From Serendipita indica DSM 11827 (Eukaryota > Basidiomycota > Agaricomycetes > Sebacinales > Serendipitaceae): DNA of 64,000 nt. The position numbers and the translations under genes are program-made. The notes under the pieces are model-generated. The model saw nothing but the letters and a program-made list of their open reading frames with translations. It was not told the origin of the DNA and searched no databases. Shown here piece by piece: positions 3,435 through 51,718 of the stretch (position 1 is the first letter of the stretch; each line of letters opens with the position of its first letter). The stretch is from contig CAJVGD010000013.1 of assembly GCA_910890315.1 (NCBI GenBank), positions 248,001 through 312,000 of the forward strand, in the 5' to 3' direction.

Positions 3435-5590
3435 CAGTTTCAAGTCTCTAAAAACAAAAAATTCAAGAAGAAGGGCAGGATAGTGAAATAATAGATCATG
3501 TATATGCATATAGCAAGTAAAGCAATGCCAGTCGCTCTGTGACTTTACCGTCCAGTCAGATGTTTAGCAGGCGAGAGCGTGGACCCTTGGGATTCCTTAA
3601 AGCTGCGTCAATATTGTCATCGACTTGGAGGCGGATGGAGATATACATAAATGGAGAGCCTAAATTACCAAACGTTCGATGGTTCCTCACGATTCCGCAG
3701 CAAAACAATATACCGTATATGAAGGAGAGCGACAATTATGATGTCCCAAGCCTTATTTATATGATTACTTCAATTGAGAGGTATGGTATCACCGTCAAAG
3801 TGCAAGAGGCGGATTTATCCACAAAGGGTGCGCTCCGCGACGGGCGGCTGAGGTAAAGTGACACGATCATAGAAAAGCAAGAAACATGGCTTAGTTCGGC
3901 GTTGGGAATGGGTGAAGAATTGCCTTAGCAATATCTGCCCAATGCCCAATGCTTGTGGGCGACGGAATGAGAGTAACTATTCCACTACGCATTTCATATA
4001 CATGGGTTTATTCTGTATACCTTGAGATAGTGCGGGTGCAGTGCTCAGTCAGCCAGGGTGTATCCGGTTTCACCGCAAAAGACTGGTCTAGATTATGAAT
4101 TCAATATATTGCATACGGCGGACAGAACAAGTGGTTCCTGTTTCGTGGATTGTATTCAGTTTAGCTGGCCGGCGGCTGTAGAGTAGTGACGTGAATGTGA
4201 TGAACTGTGGTGCGAGTTCAAGTCATACTCAGCGGAAGCAGTTCAACAGCCCGGAGTCTGTGAGCAGATTGACCCTCATGTCAAGTAGGGTACCCAGAGT
4301 CTCGGACAGGTCCCGAGCTGGTGCACGGTGAGACCTTTCTTGATTCTCGGACGTCTCGTTTCACCTCTAGTATTTGGCCCAGCTTCTCGAATACTCTATA
4401 CTTGGACGAATCAAATCTTTTGATCTACCGACATCTCCCCACAGAACCGTGCCTCGGATCACTGCTTTTGATTTGCACGCTATGGCACGTGTTTGCTAGT
4501 TTGGACTATCGACTCTCGAAACTGACCAATATTTATAGTCAGCGGGTCGTCACTCCATAGTAAGTACCGTCAAATCAAAGCTCGGTACCGTCTGGACATC
4601 CTTTGATCACTTTCCGGTTGCACTTGTCAGATGCATGGCTTCGAGGCAGATCCCAACGCTGGAATTGATCAGCTTCCGAGCTTGGCAGAGGGATACTGAC
4701 TATTCGAACGAGAGATTTGCAATTGGTGCAAGGATCTAGATTTCCCCGCATCACCACTTTGATGAGATTTGGTTTCCTGGTTTAAATGGTTCATTGAAAT
4801 CCGACTAGACTAATTACAAAGTCGAGGCGCTGATACCACGGATCACAGGGATGGCGTGCACAGGAAGGAAGCAGCTTTTGATAGCAAGAGATTACCCGTT
4901 GCAACTCCACCACCCTCTGGTGTGCTCGTCCACTCCTATTTTTTCCCGTACCCGGCATAATGGGCAAATAAAGCTGAATGAGGGGGTATAACCTTCTTCC
5001 GCTTGACTTCCTCGCCAGATGAGCAGTCGAGGAGAGAAATCGCCCAGCACGGTTCATATCTCATCAAAAGAGAAGATTGGATATCATTTCTTGGACAGCA
5101 GGTCAAGAAACTGGTCAATACTTTTCCTGAGGGATCTCAGAGACGGTCTACATGATCCCTAGCTCGATCATGCTGTCGAATTGGGAGTCTTCGACGAAAT
5201 TATTGTAATGATTTCGTCGCAGAAGTCACAGTAAGGGGCGTCCTCCCTTACTCGCTGATTCCCGGTCAGCATGTGATCCAGTTGGCCCAGGCAGGCATAC
5301 AATTGTACACAGGAGAAGGATCGCGAAGCTTTCGCTCTGGAGAGAGTTCGTAATAGAATGCGGTGCAACCTTGTTGACGACGATGTGTCAAAACTCAACT
5401 AATTTTATTTCTCCGGCGTATGATATTTCTCAATGGCTACTGCGTCGCGTGATGGCGATGAAGCATCAAGAGCCGTACACATTGAGACGAATTCGGAGGT
5501 AGTTCGGGCCAGGGTAATCGTTTCTAGGACATCTTTTTATTTGCCAAGAGATAGAAGCTGATGAATGCCCCCTCCTGTCTCTTAAAAGAC
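3435..5590. other. Long intergenic stretch with possible coding scraps
   Basis: No recognisable gene. A plus frame at 3539-3856 (105 residues, containing NGEPKLPNVRWFLTIP) is open but has no recognised domain. Around 5010-5140 on the plus strand one frame reads like real protein (EQSRREIAQHG, REDWISFLGQQVKKL) and is then lost; it may be a gene remnant. The region is AT-richer than the neighbouring genes. The last 100 bp should contain the esterase promoter. Confidence 0.4.
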
Positions 5591-17197: not shown

Positions 17198-20100
17198 ATG
17201 TCGGACCGAAAGACAGCCAAATCCATGAAACAGCACAAAAGCGCGAATTCATCGAGATCTTCATCTCGCGCTCGACCCTCAACGAGTAAGAGGGATCAAG
17301 TATACGACGCTGTCAACTTTGGTCTCGATGTGACCGTAAATATAGCCGAAGGATCAGATATACTTGCGCCTCTAAAGGCGGCCTGTCGAACAACCAAATT
17401 GATCCTTGAAGTCGTCCAGGTGGTTTGATGAAACTAGCACGACTTCGTCTAATGGATGCGACAGGCGACAGAGAACAACCAAGAAGAATGGATCGACTTG
17501 GCTCGACGCCTGAAAGGATATATATCAGCACTTGAGGAACGGGTTGCTATATTTGAGACATATCCTCCGGAGGACAGGGTTGTCGACAAGGCATTTAGCC
17601 AGCCGCTCATTCACTATACTGAGTACGTGAACATATCAATTCTATCAATATACTGAGCGAGGCAGATTCCTCGAAACGATGAATGACATGGTTGTCGACC
17701 TACAGACGAAACGGAGCCGCAGCAAAGCCGGCATCTTTACCGCGTTCATCAAAATCAAAATTAACGCTGGGAAGATTTCCAAACTTAATTGAGATATCGA
17801 AGATCAGCATAGACAGTTTATGGTGCGAGCCTTGATCTGTCGCGTTTACAAGTTGACCACAAGCACAGGAGGCGTTGAGCCTTTTTACCGCAATGCGTAT
17901 TCAAGCGATTGAACGGAATACAATGGCTACCAAAGACGATGTACGGGCTACCAAGGGCAACGTGGAGGTCACCAAGGCCAATGTGGAAACACTTCTGTCG
18001 GACGGTGTGTTGAAGCCTCTCATGAGATGCTTACTTACCATTCCAAGTCGACACCGCTGCAATACTACAGCCGCCAACAGTTGCATTCGTCGCATCTTCG
18101 GTCCACAACACCTGTTTGAAAGGGACGCGCGAGGCCGTTCTTCAGACGACCTGGCACTGGGCCGACGATGATTCCTCGGACAAGCCAATCTTTTGGCTCT
18201 GCGATATCGCTGGTTCCGGCAAGTCTACCGTCGCAATGTCCGCAGTCGAACCATGGCGCAAGAAGGGAGTGTTGGGCGGCCGGTTCTTCTTCTCCATAGC
18301 AAGTAACGAAAGGTCGACCACCGACAAAGTCTGCTCGACTATAGCAAGGGATCTTGTCCAGTACATCGCCGAGCTCGCGCCGCACATTGCTGAAGCAGTG
18401 AAGCAGAACCCTTCCTTCATGCGAAGCGCTCTTGATGAACAGTTCCAAGTGCTTGTCGGCAATCCTGTCCAACATCGCCAAGGGCGCGTGATACTTGTCA
18501 TCGGCGCCCTCGACGAGTGTAAACTTGGATCACAGCGAAGGGAACTCGTAGGCATGCTGTCTGCGACTGTCAGAGAATACAAGAATCTCAGGATATTCAT
18601 AACAAGTCGGCCAGATCCCGTCATCCAAGCAGCCTTAGGCCCACTCTCCATCAAAGCCAAGTTGGAGGACCGTCTCCACAATGTCAATTACGGCGACAAT
18701 ATAAAAGACATCGCTGTATACGTACATCAATCGCTAGATGGAGTATTACCGGTAGACAAGAGGCAGAGACTGGCCGACAAAGCCAACGGCTTGTTCATCT
18801 GGGCTGCCACAGCATGCCGAATGCTGAAGGACGAGACTAGTTTGAGCTCTCCCAAGTTCACCTATGATCTTCTGATTTCCATCGACCAAGCTGGCGCCAT
18901 TGACAACCTATACAGCCTCATCTTCGAGCGCATAGACCCCGTGCACTATGAGGTGATGTATAGCATGCTTGCTCTGCTGCTCGCAGCGTTTGAACCCCTC
19001 ACCACAGCGGATCTCGACGATATTCTCGAGCACGCTGGAATACATTGGAGCGCCAAAACCTTGGTGCGGAATCTCGGGAGTGTACTGATTGAGGACGCGA
19101 GTACAAATTTGATCCAATTCCACCATTCCACGCTCGTCGAGTATCTTCGACGTTGCTCCGTTAACCCGACTGTCAGTAGCTCCAATAAGATGTACATCAA
19201 CGGCACCAATGCACATGAGCAAGCCGCATCGTGGTGTCTCGAATGCTTCAAATCGCCGACTGAAGGCCTCAGGTTCAACATATGTCAAATCGAATCTTCG
19301 TTGTCCCTAAACAGACAGATATCTGACCTTGATGCCAGAGTTTCAAGGTTTATCTCAAGAAAGCTTCGATATGCCAGCTCTCATTGGCTATTCCATTTGG
19401 TGGAAACTGGTGACGAGTGGCGAGGTGCGCTCGAACGCAGACTTGAGCACGCTCTTAGAATTCCCTATGTGCTATACTGGATGGAGATTCTTAGCTTAAC
19501 TGGAGGAGTGCCACGAGCGATAACCGACCTTCGAGCTGCAACGCGCTGCACAGGGGTGAGTAATCCACCTGTACGATTTCTCGTATTTTACGCCGTGAAT
19601 AGATTGAAGAGATCAAGAGCAGAATGACAGACATTCGACGTTTTCTAACGTCATTTTTGGTGCCGATTCAAGATAGTGCTCCCCACATCTACATCTCGGA
19701 GCTTCCTTTCAGCCAAATAAATTCAGTACTTCATGTCGAGAGCTTAAAACGACATGCAAATACCCTCACTGTGACTCAAGGCCTCGAGGAGATGTACCCT
19801 GGGCTCCCAAGAAGTCTCAAAGGCCATGAGGGATCTATACTTTCAATCAACTTCTCGCCAGACGGCTCGCGAATCATCTCTGGCTCGGAAGGCAACACTA
19901 TTCGACTTTGGGATGCAGACACTGGTCAGCCACTGCGAGAGCCACTGCGAGAGCCACTGCGAGAGCCACTGCGAGAGCCACTGCGAGGGCATGAAGGAAT
20001 GGTCTGGGCGGTTGGGTTCTCGCCAGATGGCTCTCGAATTGTTTCTAGTCCGGGTGACAGTACCATTCGATTGTGGAACGCAACGACTCGTCAGCCACTG

Positions 20101-20815
20101 GGGAAGCCACTCCAAGGTCATGAAGATCGGGTGAGGGCCGCAGGGTTCTCGCCAGACGGCTCACGAATCGTCTCTGGTTCGGACGATATAACCATTCGAA
20201 TATGGGATGCTGAGACTGGTCAGCCACTAGGAGATCCACTTCGAGGTCATAAAGGCTGGGTGAGGGCCGTACAGTTCTCTCCAGACGGCTCCCGAATTGT
20301 CTCTGGCTCGGACGACCAGACCGTTCGACTATGGAACGCAGCGACTGGCCAACCTCCGGGAGAGCCAGTCCGAGATTGTGAAGGGCCTATCTACTCGGTT
20401 GGGTTCTCGTAGGATGACTCACGGATCGTCTCTGGCTCGGCCGACGATCTTCCACCACTGAGTGCAAAGATTGGTCAGTGGTAGTTTTGATTTATGGCGG
20501 CAGGCTGACGAATCTCGTTAGATGACACTGAGGAATCTGACTCGAGTGCCAGAACTGACTCGCGGGGTACTCCACCGAGAATCCTTGTACCCGGATTCAG
20601 TCACTGCTCACTGTCCCAAGATGGCTGGGTGCAATCTTCGGGTCAATTTCTCTTCTGGGTACCTCCAGACAATCGACATGGACTTCAATACCCGTCTGCT
20701 CTTCTGACTTTACCGACAAACAGTCCGCTGCGTCTAACCAAAGTTGATTTCACCCACTTTCAATGCGGTACCTCCTGGATAAACGTTCTACCAAATGCCA
20801 ACCGGTAGATCGATC
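17198..20815 (+). pseudogene. HET-E-like NACHT-WD40 gene, decayed copy 1
   Basis: Exons by eye, phases consistent: 17198-17419, 17465-17622, 17666-17822, 17869-18004, 18048-19555, 19603-20412, plus a detached C-terminal piece around 20560-20815. Parts: a helical N-terminal region (DILAPLKAACRTTKLILEVV), NACHT with Walker A CDIAGSGKST, then about four WD40 units. Faults compared with copy 2: an in-frame TGA in exon 3 (17790-17792) where copy 2 has CGT; the Walker B position reads ILVIGALDEC instead of ILVIDALDEC; a TAG at 20410 inside the fifth WD40 unit; and scrambled sequence between there and the tail. The tail (VPGF..C/DGW, FWVPPDN, LTLPT) is still recognisable. HET-E-type proteins are fungal STAND/NLR-like sensors that can trigger cell death in nonself recognition. 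This copy is very probably dead. Confidence 0.85.
19931..19990 (+). repeat. 12-bp minisatellite inside WD40 unit 1
   Basis: The unit 'cactgcgagagc' is repeated about four to five times in phase with the reading frame, turning the usual GEPLRGHE turn into QPLREPLREPLREPLREP followed by LRGHE. Other WD40 units in the window have a single EPLRGH. It adds about 16 residues to an outer loop. Confidence 0.9.
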
Positions 20816-47051: not shown

Positions 47052-50000
47052 ATGTCGTCCAAAACCCCCAATAGTCAACATGAAGCCCCGAATCTACCGG
47101 AGCCTTCGTCTACTGCAGGACCCTCGTCGCGCAAGAGGGCTCGGGTGTACCACACGGCCAGTACCGGTCTCGACATCCTGGGAAACGTATCCGAGGCGTC
47201 AGATATACTCTCTCCTCTTAAAGCTGCCTGCAGAGCGACCAAATCGATTCTTGATGTTGTCCAAGTGAGTGGGCGAGACTGACACAACTTCATCTCATGA
47301 ATATGGCAGGCTGTCGATGACAACCAGGAAGAATGGAATGATCTAACGCAGCGTTTGGAGGGCTATATGTCCGCTATTGATGACCAGATTGATGCGTTCG
47401 AAAAGTATTCTCCAGCGGAGAGAGCCGTCGACGATGCACTCAGCCAATCACTCGCTCATTACGTCAAGTACGTGCAAACTCGAATACTCGTTCGGGTTTC
47501 TGATTGGTTCAGACTGCTCGGGGAATTCCATGACAAGGTCGCCCAGCATAGGCATAAGAGAAGCCGTATCAGCATCAGCGCATTAACTACGATAAGCAAA
47601 ATCAAACTCGACGCAGGAGATATCCGCAAGTTCCATCGTGATATCGAGGACCAACACAGGCAACTAATGGTATGAGACCCATCAGCCAATTTCGTAATCT
47701 CATTGTAAATGACAGGAGAAGCTGGGTCTTTTTGCCGCACTGCGCCTTCAGATCATCGAACAGAACACCAAGGTTATCCTGACAGAGGGTAGGTAGAAAA
47801 ATATGCGTTGGGCGTCGCTAAACATTTAAAGTCGACGCGTCTGCTATTCTCCAGCTGCCGATCGTAGCATTTTCTGCATCCTCGGTCCACAATACCTGTC
47901 TTCAAGGAACACGCCAGGCTGTGCTTCAGACTATCTGGCGCTGGGCAGCTGACGACCTGTCAGAAAAGCCAATATTTTGGCTCTGTGATATAGCTGGGTC
48001 CGGAAAGTCCACAGTCGCAATGTCCGTGGCGCAAGTATGGAGAACAGAAGGAGCTCTGGGGGCCCAATTCTTCTTCTCCCTCGCCAGCAGTGAGGGCTCT
48101 ACCACAGAGAAATTCTGTTCAACCTTAGCCAGAGAGCTTGTCCAGTACATGCCTGAACTTGGACCTCATATCGCCGACGCCGTGAAGCGAAATCCTGCGA
48201 TCATACGAAGTTCGTTCCACGACCAGATCCGAACATTGGTCACCGCCCCGCTCCAGCATCGTCAGAAACGGACCATTCTCGTCATTGACGCCCTCGACGA
48301 ATGTAAATCTGGAACGCAGAGAAGGGAGCTATTGGATAGTCTTGCCATGGCTGTTCGAGAAACCCGGAATCTCAAGATATTTATCACCAGTCGGCCAGAC
48401 CACGTCATAGAGTCGGTTCTACAACCACTCTCGATCAAAGCGCAGCTAAAGGACCGTCTCCACGACGTCAGCCACCACGATAATATTGACGACATTGCGT
48501 CCTACGTGCATCAATCGCTGCACGATATACTACCGCAGGACAAGAGACAGCAGTTGGTGGACAAAGCTAATGGATTGTTCATCTGGGCAAGCACTGCATG
48601 TCGAATGCTCACAAGCAAAACCAGCTTGAGTCCGCCTGAGGACATATACGATCGCCTAATCTCCATGGACCAGCCCGGAGCAATAGACAGCGTATATAAT
48701 CTCGTCTTTGAGCGTATAGATCCCGAATACTACGGGGTCATGTGTGCGATGCTTGCGCTGTTGCTTGCTGCATTCGAGCCTCTCACCATCGACGATCTAG
48801 ACGACCTCCTGAAGCACTCGAGGGTACCCGGAAGAGCCAAAGCGCTGGTACAGAATTTGGGAAGCGTACTCAGTGTGGATCGGGGTACAGATCAGATTCA
48901 ATTTCGCCATCCTACCCTCGTGGAGTACCTTCGACGCTGCACCACAGCACCAGTTATCGCTAAACATAATAAGCTCTATCTCAACGCGGTCGAAGCACAT
49001 GGTCAAGCAGCATCTTGGTGTCTCAAACGCCTCAAATCGCCGAACGGAGGGCTCAAGTTTAATATATGCGAAATCGAATCTTCCTTCTTTCTAAACAGGC
49101 AGATACCTGACTTGGATGCCAGAGTTACAAGGCTGATTCCAAGAAGGCTTCGATATGCGAGCTCCCATTGGCTGTTCCATTTGGCGGAAACGGACGACAA
49201 GTGGAGGCGCGCGCTCGTGAGGGAGCTCGAACCCATTACCACATACCCCTATGATCTATACTGGATGGAGGTTCTTAGCTTGACCGGAGGAGTCCCACGA
49301 GCGATACTTGGTCTTCGATCGATTGTTGGTCGCACAGGAGTGAGTGATATACCCCGATGATTTCTGTTTTTCACCCCAAACTAGCTCGAGAAGCCTAGAA
49401 GTAATCTGAAAGAAATCCGAAGGTTTCTCATGAGATTTTCAGTGCCGATCCAGGAGAGTGCTCCGCATATCTACATCTCAGCGCTTCCATTCGCTCCTAA
49501 AAGATCGTTGGTACATATCGAGGGCCTGAAACAATACGCGAATACCCTCACCGTGACCGAGGGGTTGGAGGAAACGTATCCTGGGCTTGTCACACCTCTT
49601 AAATTTGTTTGTAAGGTGCTGGCTGCCGGATTTTCACCAGACGGTTCACGAACTGTCTTTGGGTTGAGCGACCATACCCTCCGAATATGGGATGCAGACA
49701 CAGGTCAACCACTGGGAGAACTACTCCGAGGTCACCAAGAATCAGTCAGTGCCGTCGTGTTCTCACCAGATAGCTCACGAATCGTTTCTGGCTCGTATGA
49801 CACGACGCTTCGAATTTGGGACGCGGACACCGGTCGACCACTGGGAGAGCCACTCCGGGGTCACAAGAGACCGGTGAAGATTGTCGAGTTCTCACCAGAA
49901 GGCTCGCGGTTTGTCTCCAGCTCGGATGACGCGACGATTCGAATGTGGGATGCAGACACTGGTCAGTTACTAGGGGTCACGCTCCCAGGCTATAACGGGG

Positions 50001-51718
50001 GTGTTTTAGCCATGAGATTTTCGCCATGCGACTTACGAGTCGTCTGTCGCTTGGACAACAAGACGATGGGACTGTGGAATGCGGACACTAATCAGCCATT
50101 TGGAGAGCCACTCAGAGGGCATGAAGATCTGGTGACGGCCGTCGCTTTCTCGCCAGACGGATCACGAATCGTCTCTGGCTTGTGGGACGGAACGATTCGA
50201 ATATGGGACGCAGCCACTGGTCAGCCACTGGGGGAGCCACTCCGAGATCATAATGGTTTGTTAGTTGTCGTCGCGTTCTCGCCAGACGGATCACGAATCG
50301 TCTCTGGCTCGTGGGACGGCACGATTTGAATGTGGGACGCAGACACTTGTCAGCCTCTGGGAGAGCCGTTCGGAAGTCGCGATGGTTCGCCTTGTGACTT
50401 AAGGTTCTCTCCAGACGGATCCCAAATCATCTCTTCCTCAGGCGACGGTTTGGTTCGACTGTGGAATATAGACACTGGTCAGACACTGGGAGAGCCATTT
50501 CAAGGTCACGAATCATCAGTAAAGTTCGTCTCATTTTCGTCAGATGGATCACGAATCATCTCTGCCTCATTCGACAATACGATTCGACTCTGGGACATGG
50601 ACACCGGCCAGCCACTTGGGGAGCCGCTCCGAGGTTTTGAAGGAGAAACTTTGGCCGTCATATTCTCACCAGATGGATTCTTAATCGCCTCTAGCCCTGA
50701 CGGTGACAACAGGCTCGATCTCTGGGACGCTGCCACTAGTCAGACACTGAGAGCATCACTCGAAGGTCACGAGGATGATGTAACAGCCGCCAATTTCTCG
50801 CCAGATGGTGCACGAATTGTCTCTGGTTCACAGGATCACACGATTCGACTGTGGGACACTGCCACTGGTTGGCCTCTGGGAGAGCCACTCAGAGGTCATG
50901 AAGGACCAGTCAGGGCCGTCGTGTTCTCACCAGATAGCTCACGAATAGTCTCTGGCTCGGATGAAACGACGTTTCGAATATGGGATGCAGCCACTGGTCA
51001 GCCACTGGGGGACCCACTCCGAGGTCATGAATGTGGTGTGTATGCCCTCGCGCTCTCGCCAGACGGATCACGAATTGTCTCTGGCTCGGACGACAAGACC
51101 GTTCGACTGTGGAACGCAGAAACTGGTCAGCCATTGGGAGAGCCACTCAGACGTCATGAAGATTTGGTGGAGGCCGTCGCATTCTCGCCAGACGGATCAC
51201 GAATCGTTTCTGGCTCGAGCGACAGGACGATTCGACTGTGGGACGTGGCCACTGGCCAGCCGCTTGGAGAGCCACTTCGAGGTCACAGAGAGGGTATCAG
51301 CGCCATCGGTTTCTCGCCAGACGGCTCACGAGTTGTCTCCGGCTCATGGGACTCCACGATTATTGTCTGGGATACAGCGACTGGTCAGTGTTTTTTCGAC
51401 TCACTACTGAATGTAGGGACGACCTGACGAGTGTCTTTAGTCGCAAGCGCAAATCACTCCAACACAATTCTTGGGCCTGAGTCGCAGACAATTTCCGTCC
51501 CTGGATTCAGTCACTGCACACTTTCCCAAGATGGCTGGGTGCAATCTTCTGGTAAATTTCTCTTCTGGGTACCGCCAGATAATCGGCAAGGACTTCAATA
51601 TCCGCATCCTCGTCTGACTTTACCGACAACGAGCCCCCTTCGTGTAACCAAACTCGATTTCACCCATTTTCAATGCGGTTCCTCTTGGACAAAGGTTCGA
51701 ACGGATGGCCATGAATGA
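47052..51718 (+). pseudogene. HET-E-like NACHT-WD40 gene, copy 2, complete except one stop
   Basis: Seven exons, phases consistent: 47052-47264, 47310-47467, 47513-47669, 47716-47788, 47832-49339, 49385-51383, 51441-51718; 1461 residue positions. Order: a helical N-terminal domain (~residues 25-200: DILSPLKAACRATKSILDVV, DIEDQHRQLM); NACHT ATPase with Walker A CDIAGSGKST, Walker B ILVIDALDEC, and FITSRPD; a winged-helix-like region (LAAFEPLTIDDLDDLL; HPTLVEYLRR); 14 WD40 units of 43 residues (two seven-blade propellers); and a C-terminal cap (VPGFSHCTLSQDGWVQSSG). One in-frame TGA (50327-50329) replaces the usual CGA in unit 6 (DGTI-stop-MWDAD); everything after it stays open for 365 codons. 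By family these are STAND/NLR-like nonself sensors leading to heterokaryon incompatibility. It is a young pseudogene, a sequencing error, or an allele making a five-blade product. Confidence 0.85.
49600..51383 (+). repeat. Array of 14 WD40-coding units, ~129 bp each
   Basis: Tandem units share near-identical DNA, for example 'ccagacggatcacgaatcgt' followed by 'ctctggctc' in units 5, 6, 12 and 13. Variation is concentrated at the positions just before and after the SPDGSRIVSG strand. Units 3, 4, 7 and 9 are more diverged. High internal similarity is typical of fungal NLR repeat domains that are reshuffled by recombination. Confidence 0.9.

Follow-up and report, generated by a model that had tools for sequence, protein, structure and literature searches.

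A Candidate Null Allele, Probably of Recent Origin, in a Large Fungal NACHT-WD40 Receptor Family

The forward-strand gene at 47052–51718 of the 64,000-nucleotide stretch of DNA that we analyzed (the window) is, judged by its sequence, a NACHT-WD40 (NWD-type) receptor whose coding sequence is interrupted by one in-frame TGA. We consider it rather likely that the gene is a young nonsense allele, most probably null, in a known NWD-type family; the most likely history is the ordinary loss of one member, by a null allele of a known kind, from a fast-changing family. That family appears to comprise at least 150 paralogous WD40 exons and is very probably that of Serendipita indica, so the gene would be a specific example of a loss allele whose age can be roughly estimated, in the fungus in which a 2014 survey counted the most NLRs. 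In the literature, which was available to us in part, we found no publication that names the locus and no PIIN gene number that matches it.

Gene Architecture

As a previous reading of the letters (the sequence-only reading) had proposed, the gene has seven exons that all keep phase, giving a 4,386-nt coding sequence with one internal stop; all introns are GT..AG, 43–57 nt long, and in phase. The exons are on the forward strand. The N-terminal region begins in exon 1 (47052–47264) and continues in exon 2 (47310–47467, with 45-nt GT..AG introns on either side) and exon 3 (47513–47669), and tblastn found all three to be conserved in paralogues; exon 4 (47716–47788) is placed by the gene model. 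The N-terminal region was matched by tblastn in all 20 of the paralogue loci that span it. Its score against PF17111 (PigL_N, which we take to be the former Helo_like_N) was 20.6 bits, under the cut-off of 27.2, and PF17111 was present in three of six N-termini at E values up to 0.1. Among the Pfam matches of the N-terminal region with E values of 0.1 or less, in this gene and in five paralogues, no HET family appeared.

Exon 5 (47832–49339) encodes an NPHP3_N/NACHT module, whose motifs the sequence-only reading called intact, with scores of 53.2 bits for PF05729 (cut-off 26.7) and 97.3 bits for PF24883 (cut-off 24.8). A search by sequence at E values up to 0.01 gave no relative of solved structure for this exon.

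Exon 6 (49385–51383) contains the NACHT-to-WD40 linker (49385–49618), which we used as a family probe and which has at least 150 matches in the genome, followed by the 14 WD40 units (2 × 7) that the sequence-only reading had counted. Profile matches place units 1–7, the first propeller, at 49631–50530 and units 8–14, the second propeller, at 50531–51391, 3′ of the stop, where the last match enters intron 6 by 8 nt. The C-terminal propeller matches PF00400, and the array is interrupted by the stop in this copy. AlphaFold2, run on the intact paralogue L012 with ten sisters, predicted two seven-blade propellers (mean pLDDT 84.7, pTM 0.52; the five L012 models span 84.7 to 64.8), and a Foldseek search with the double propeller of the intact paralogue returned the repetitive double propeller 2ymu first and Apaf-1 second. 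Unit statistics were restricted to profile matches starting no later than position 4 and ending no earlier than 22; on this basis the mean nucleotide identity between pairs of units is 0.63 (12 full units), below the >80–85% of the HNWD/HIC criterion. The separate exon for the C-terminal cap is kept, again as claimed: exon 7 (51441–51718) encodes 92 aa that tblastn matched in 34 of 36 paralogue loci, and in the two others (L040 and L044) the stretch stops near or before the expected position of the cap.

The In-Frame Stop Codon

The gene model and profile matches place the TGA at 50327–50329 on the forward strand, in codon 19 of WD40 unit 6 (codon 1018 of the coding sequence). In the structural model this column would fall on the third strand of blade 6, at Arg316 of L012. 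Most units do read CGA at this position, as had been stated: the other 13 units of the gene have CGA (10), GGA (1), CTC (1), and ATT (1), and among 470 other units examined, the same codon is CGA in 351, CAA in 24, and TGA in none. Across 11 intact paralogues the column holds Arg in 10 and Gln (CAA) in one, and CAA is the product of the same CpG transition on the other strand. Most simply, then, the stop would have arisen by a C-to-T transition at a CpG. The observed/expected ratio of CpG is 0.98 across the window, and because CpG is not depleted, strong methylation-driven decay is not indicated; nor is methylation required.

The sequence-only reading reported 365 open codons after the stop. 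The frame is indeed open, but the count is too high, as it extends into intron 6; once that intron is spliced out, the downstream codons number 351 in exon 6 and 92 in exon 7 (by arithmetic). An open and conserved frame 3′ of the stop, together with an ATG that directly follows the TGA, would be compatible with bypass of the stop by splicing, read-through, editing, or re-initiation at the adjoining ATG, but a very recent stop accounts equally well for the conserved downstream frame. We scanned for introns across the stop, taking GT/YAG pairs of 38–120 nt in multiples of three, and a single weak, stop-free candidate passed lenient filters for donor and acceptor (50256–50342, with a donor score of 2 and no branch-point match). 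The base after the stop is A and not C, which is the leakier base in this position. We know of stop editing in fungi from ascomycetes only. Re-initiation, for its part, would yield propeller sequence without the NTPase. The proposal that the stop is edited, read through, or spliced around is thus not supported, and we regard bypass as the least probable of the explanations considered here.

Broken Members of the Family

A genome search with the NACHT exon gave 87 near-full-length matches, the best of them 75% identical and none with an internal stop; these are the best 87 of 319 candidates and are biased to intact copies. The linker probe identified 150 WD40 exons (the best 150 of 183), 48 of which have an open frame shorter than 550 codons, and a probe from the end of the NACHT exon gave a frame shorter than 480 in 34 of 150 (the best 150 of 181). 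Pairing of the probe lists yielded 143 genes, with the NACHT exon open in 112 and short in 31. The WD40 frame is short in 24 of the 112 genes with an open NACHT exon versus 20 of the 31 with a short NACHT frame, and the rarity that the sequence-only reading had implied for the stop is therefore wrong. A short open frame is not always a break, as some belong to coherent short arrays and some to contig ends (C32:119). In 10 of the 143 paired members, the NACHT and WD40 matches lie in open frames of equal length, as would be expected if intron 5 were missing or read through and both matches shared a single frame (for example, C19:383707, C16:349144, and C43:28688).

We inspected 20 of the 48 short frames as sequence, by manual reading. 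One in-frame stop was the sole lesion in this gene and, within its available stretch, in L039; a stop was accompanied by further damage in L023 and L031; frameshifts were present in 12 (L025, L029, L035–L038, L040, L041, and L043–L046); and L032, L033, L034, and L042 proved to be short arrays with a cap, which in L032 is frame-broken. The stop of L039 is a TGA at a conserved Trp of unit 8, after seven full blades. L033, L034, and L042 are coherent, near-identical arrays of seven to nine units with a normal cap, and are either length variants or collapsed repeats. Among 21 genes taken by NACHT similarity (this gene and 20 others), manual reading revealed seven broken WD40 exons (this gene, L013, L017, L020, L023, L025, and L029). 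The break pattern is common, and we attribute it in part, probably, to real birth and death; another part may be assembly error.

Two further patterns were considered and rejected. A link between near-identical arrays and breakage (three of five versus four of 16 in the 21 NACHT-picked genes) involves too few genes, and a common end point of truncation was suggested by a uniform test whose p value of 0.0065 is void, as the range ran to 640 codons and the frames were cut at 550 (n = 48). The window also contains a second NLR of the family, at 18080–20805, in which the NACHT exon is open but the WD40 array, of about five units, is degraded; this array has an in-frame TAG at 20410–20412 and is followed by a conserved cap.

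Age of the Loss

The loss had been described as very recent, and we agree: the 4,386-nt coding sequence carries one lesion, and there is no excess decay 3′ of the stop. Over a comparison segment of 492 residues (47864–49339), the NACHT exon deviates at four of 233 columns conserved in at least 90% of intact paralogues, and 11 sisters deviate at 7–19 of 239–247, which makes the NACHT exon of this gene the most consensus-like of the 12 compared. The WD40 exon deviates at 39 of 259 conserved columns (sisters, 22–48 of 273–288). The term “near-perfect” is thus apt for the NACHT exon but not for the WD40 exon, which lies on the divergent side of the family. When properly aligned, the gene ranked second of 12 for WD40 columns at the 90% conservation threshold and seventh of the same 12 for columns without any variation. 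Unit-by-unit scores for 11 open genes and this one had ranked it as the worst decayed of the 12, a result that we discarded because it stemmed in part from a one-residue insertion in unit 9.

The WD40 columns 5′ of the stop deviate at 24 of 139, the highest of the 12, and those 3′ of it at 15 of 119, inside the sister range, so the segment freed by the stop is not more decayed than the segment 5′ of it. The divergence 5′ of the stop may reflect some loosening of constraint before the stop arose. Under assumed rates in which indels amount to 10% of substitutions and CpG transitions are fivefold elevated, the probability that no further lesion would be present is 0.22 at 0.26% neutral divergence, the difference reported between the two nuclei of S. 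indica, and 0.003 at 1%.

An old, decaying pseudogene would be expected to show a WD40 exon more divergent than that of most intact sisters, as this one is, and the counts for genes with open and short NACHT frames given above show that lesions do accumulate in the family. However, there is no second lesion in 1,461 coding positions, the introns are in phase, and the NACHT exon is closer to the consensus than that of any sister compared. We consider great age highly improbable and favor a young stop.

Assembly, Alleles, and the Reality of the Stop

S. indica is most likely a heterokaryon with two distinct nuclei that differ by 2.6 SNPs per kb, according to the 2011 genome paper (PMC3192844). 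A search with the WD40 piece and two flanks found no near-identical second copy in the assembly (the best other matches were 76% and 69% identical, with short pieces at 71–86%), so two alleles would be merged at this locus. The earlier suggestion that the stop is allelic accordingly stands as a possibility, and the stop is perhaps carried by one nucleus alone; as the loss and the divergence of the nuclei are of about the same age, a one-nucleus allele is plausible but unproven.

The present assembly comprises 24.7 Mb in 55 contigs, and the window lies at 248001–312000 of contig 13. A phosphate-transporter exon of this genome shows full identity, over ∼248 residues, to PDB 9b49 (“Phosphate transporter”), the PiPT protein of Piriformospora (Serendipita) indica, so the species is very probably S. 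indica. We infer that it is the published S. indica assembly of 24.7 Mb in 57 contigs, for which 324 Mb of MinION reads were called with Albacore and polished in Pilon with 5.46 Gb of MiSeq data (PMC8385953). The resemblance to an assembly built from such reads lends some weight to the proposal that the stop is a base-call or consensus error, but if the two assemblies are the same, the MiSeq data used for polishing amount to ∼220-fold coverage (by arithmetic).

Small indels in sister arrays bear on the same question. In 13 near-identical arrays with 156 full units, codons 14, 16, 38, 39, and 41 are off-consensus in ∼30–53% of units and most other unit codons in <5%, the exceptions being codons 13, 33, 37, and 40 at 5–17%. 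This set comprises 13 of the 16 arrays with mean identity >0.9, the short, coherent L033, L034, and L042 being left out, and eight of the 13 had been chosen for short frames. Codons 14/16 and 39/41 lie on either side of codons 15 and 40, which by our own arithmetic is the spacing of the four selected codons of Podospora WD40 repeats, 25/27 and 7/9 (PMC1805685). Outside the last unit, 25 of 28 indels of 1–2 bases (in L023, L025, L029, L036–L038, L040, L041, and L043–L045) fall at codons 13–16 or 37–41. Single-base deletions account for 22 of the 28; L043 holds 10, and without it the count at these codons is 16 of 18. The simplest explanation is that they are probably nanopore deletions left unfixed by short-read polishing where sister units disagree, although they may instead reflect real mutational targeting of hypervariable codons. 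In Podospora, the laboratory mutants sequenced in the WD domain were all frame-keeping (PMC2873952), and a deletion in one nanopore assembly was judged to be a misassembly (PMC12222747). We also observed a TAG exactly at hypervariable codon 14 in unit 7 of L023 (gene-orientation 3587–3589 of the locus), where two neighboring units have TCG.

The clustering of indels in hypervariable zones resembles failed polishing, and to that extent favors an error at 50327–50329 as well. The array of this gene, however, is not near-identical, and its lesion is a substitution outside the hypervariable codons. The closest listed match to the 121 nt around the stop (among the best 40 of 325) is 91% identical over 99 nt and is the gene's own unit 5. 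Because the array has diverged, short reads should map uniquely, and because none of the 470 other units examined has TGA at this codon, mis-mapped reads from them could not have imported it. Base-call error, which the sequence-only reading had allowed for, is thus possible but unlikely, and at least one of the two nuclei probably does carry the stop in its DNA.

Discussion

By analogy with Podospora, the intact protein would act as an NTPase switch that stays at rest until its two propellers sense a ligand; sensing would release the N-terminal effector, and the fused or invaded cell would be killed. A C-to-T change at a CpG would have placed a nonsense codon in unit 6 of the first propeller. 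In the predicted truncated product, the N-terminal region and the NTPase would be followed by five complete blades; the remainder of blade 6 would be lost together with blade 7, the whole second propeller, and the cap. In addition, the messenger may be decayed, with an intron ∼1 kb 3′ of the stop. The stop probably disables the sensor.

One could propose that the stop is real and that truncation left a five-blade protein with a separate role, such as that of a regulator or decoy. The NACHT exon is very well kept, and L039 likewise has a single in-frame stop after several complete blades. But the end points of the 48 short frames are scattered between 109 and 540 codons, and an intron lies downstream of the stop; we find a separate function very unlikely. 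It is distinctly unlikely, too, that the stop is confined to one nucleus and was selected for silencing an allele that, if active, would be lethal to the mixed mycelium. If that were true, the stop would be an escape mutation arisen in nature, by which a heterokaryon with more than 100 NLRs is able to persist, and the wild counterpart of self-incompatible Podospora strains with hnwd mutants. The locus allows a simple test of whether the two nuclei of one mycelium have different NLR states. More generally, frame breaks of this family in the present assembly should be checked against reads before they are labeled as pseudogenes.

Among known systems, Apaf-1, which Foldseek ranked second for the double propeller of the intact paralogue (26% identity in the aligned part), combines an NTPase with a double propeller and triggers cell death; it has a CARD effector and 7 + 8 blades. 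The architecture of the present gene is shared with the NWD expansion of S. indica, for which the 2011 genome lists 99 NWD ORFs and the survey by Dyrka et al. counts 274 NLRs, the most of any species surveyed (PMC4986451). The HNWD/NWD genes of Podospora anserina (het-d, het-e, het-r, and nwd6/nwdp-1) are alike in joining a NACHT domain to a WD40 sensor modeled as two seven-blade propellers. In contrast to the HNWD genes, the gene described here has no detected HET domain, its units are not highly alike, it comes from a basidiomycete, and it is known from sequence alone. Natural and laboratory alleles of the Podospora genes have been inactivated by stops or repeat changes (PMC12222747, PMC2873952, PMC1805685). 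For example, reads support two stops in the sixth repeat of het-d in strain Wa87+, and some strains have an nwdp-1 free of stops (PMC12222747). In the sequenced Podospora strain, the WD domain of NWDp1 is interrupted by one stop, but RIP has introduced many mutations into the NACHT domain of NWDp1 (PMC1805685), whereas that of the present gene is well kept. In self-incompatible Podospora strains, the 143 mutants recovered all had affected hnwd genes (PMC2873952).
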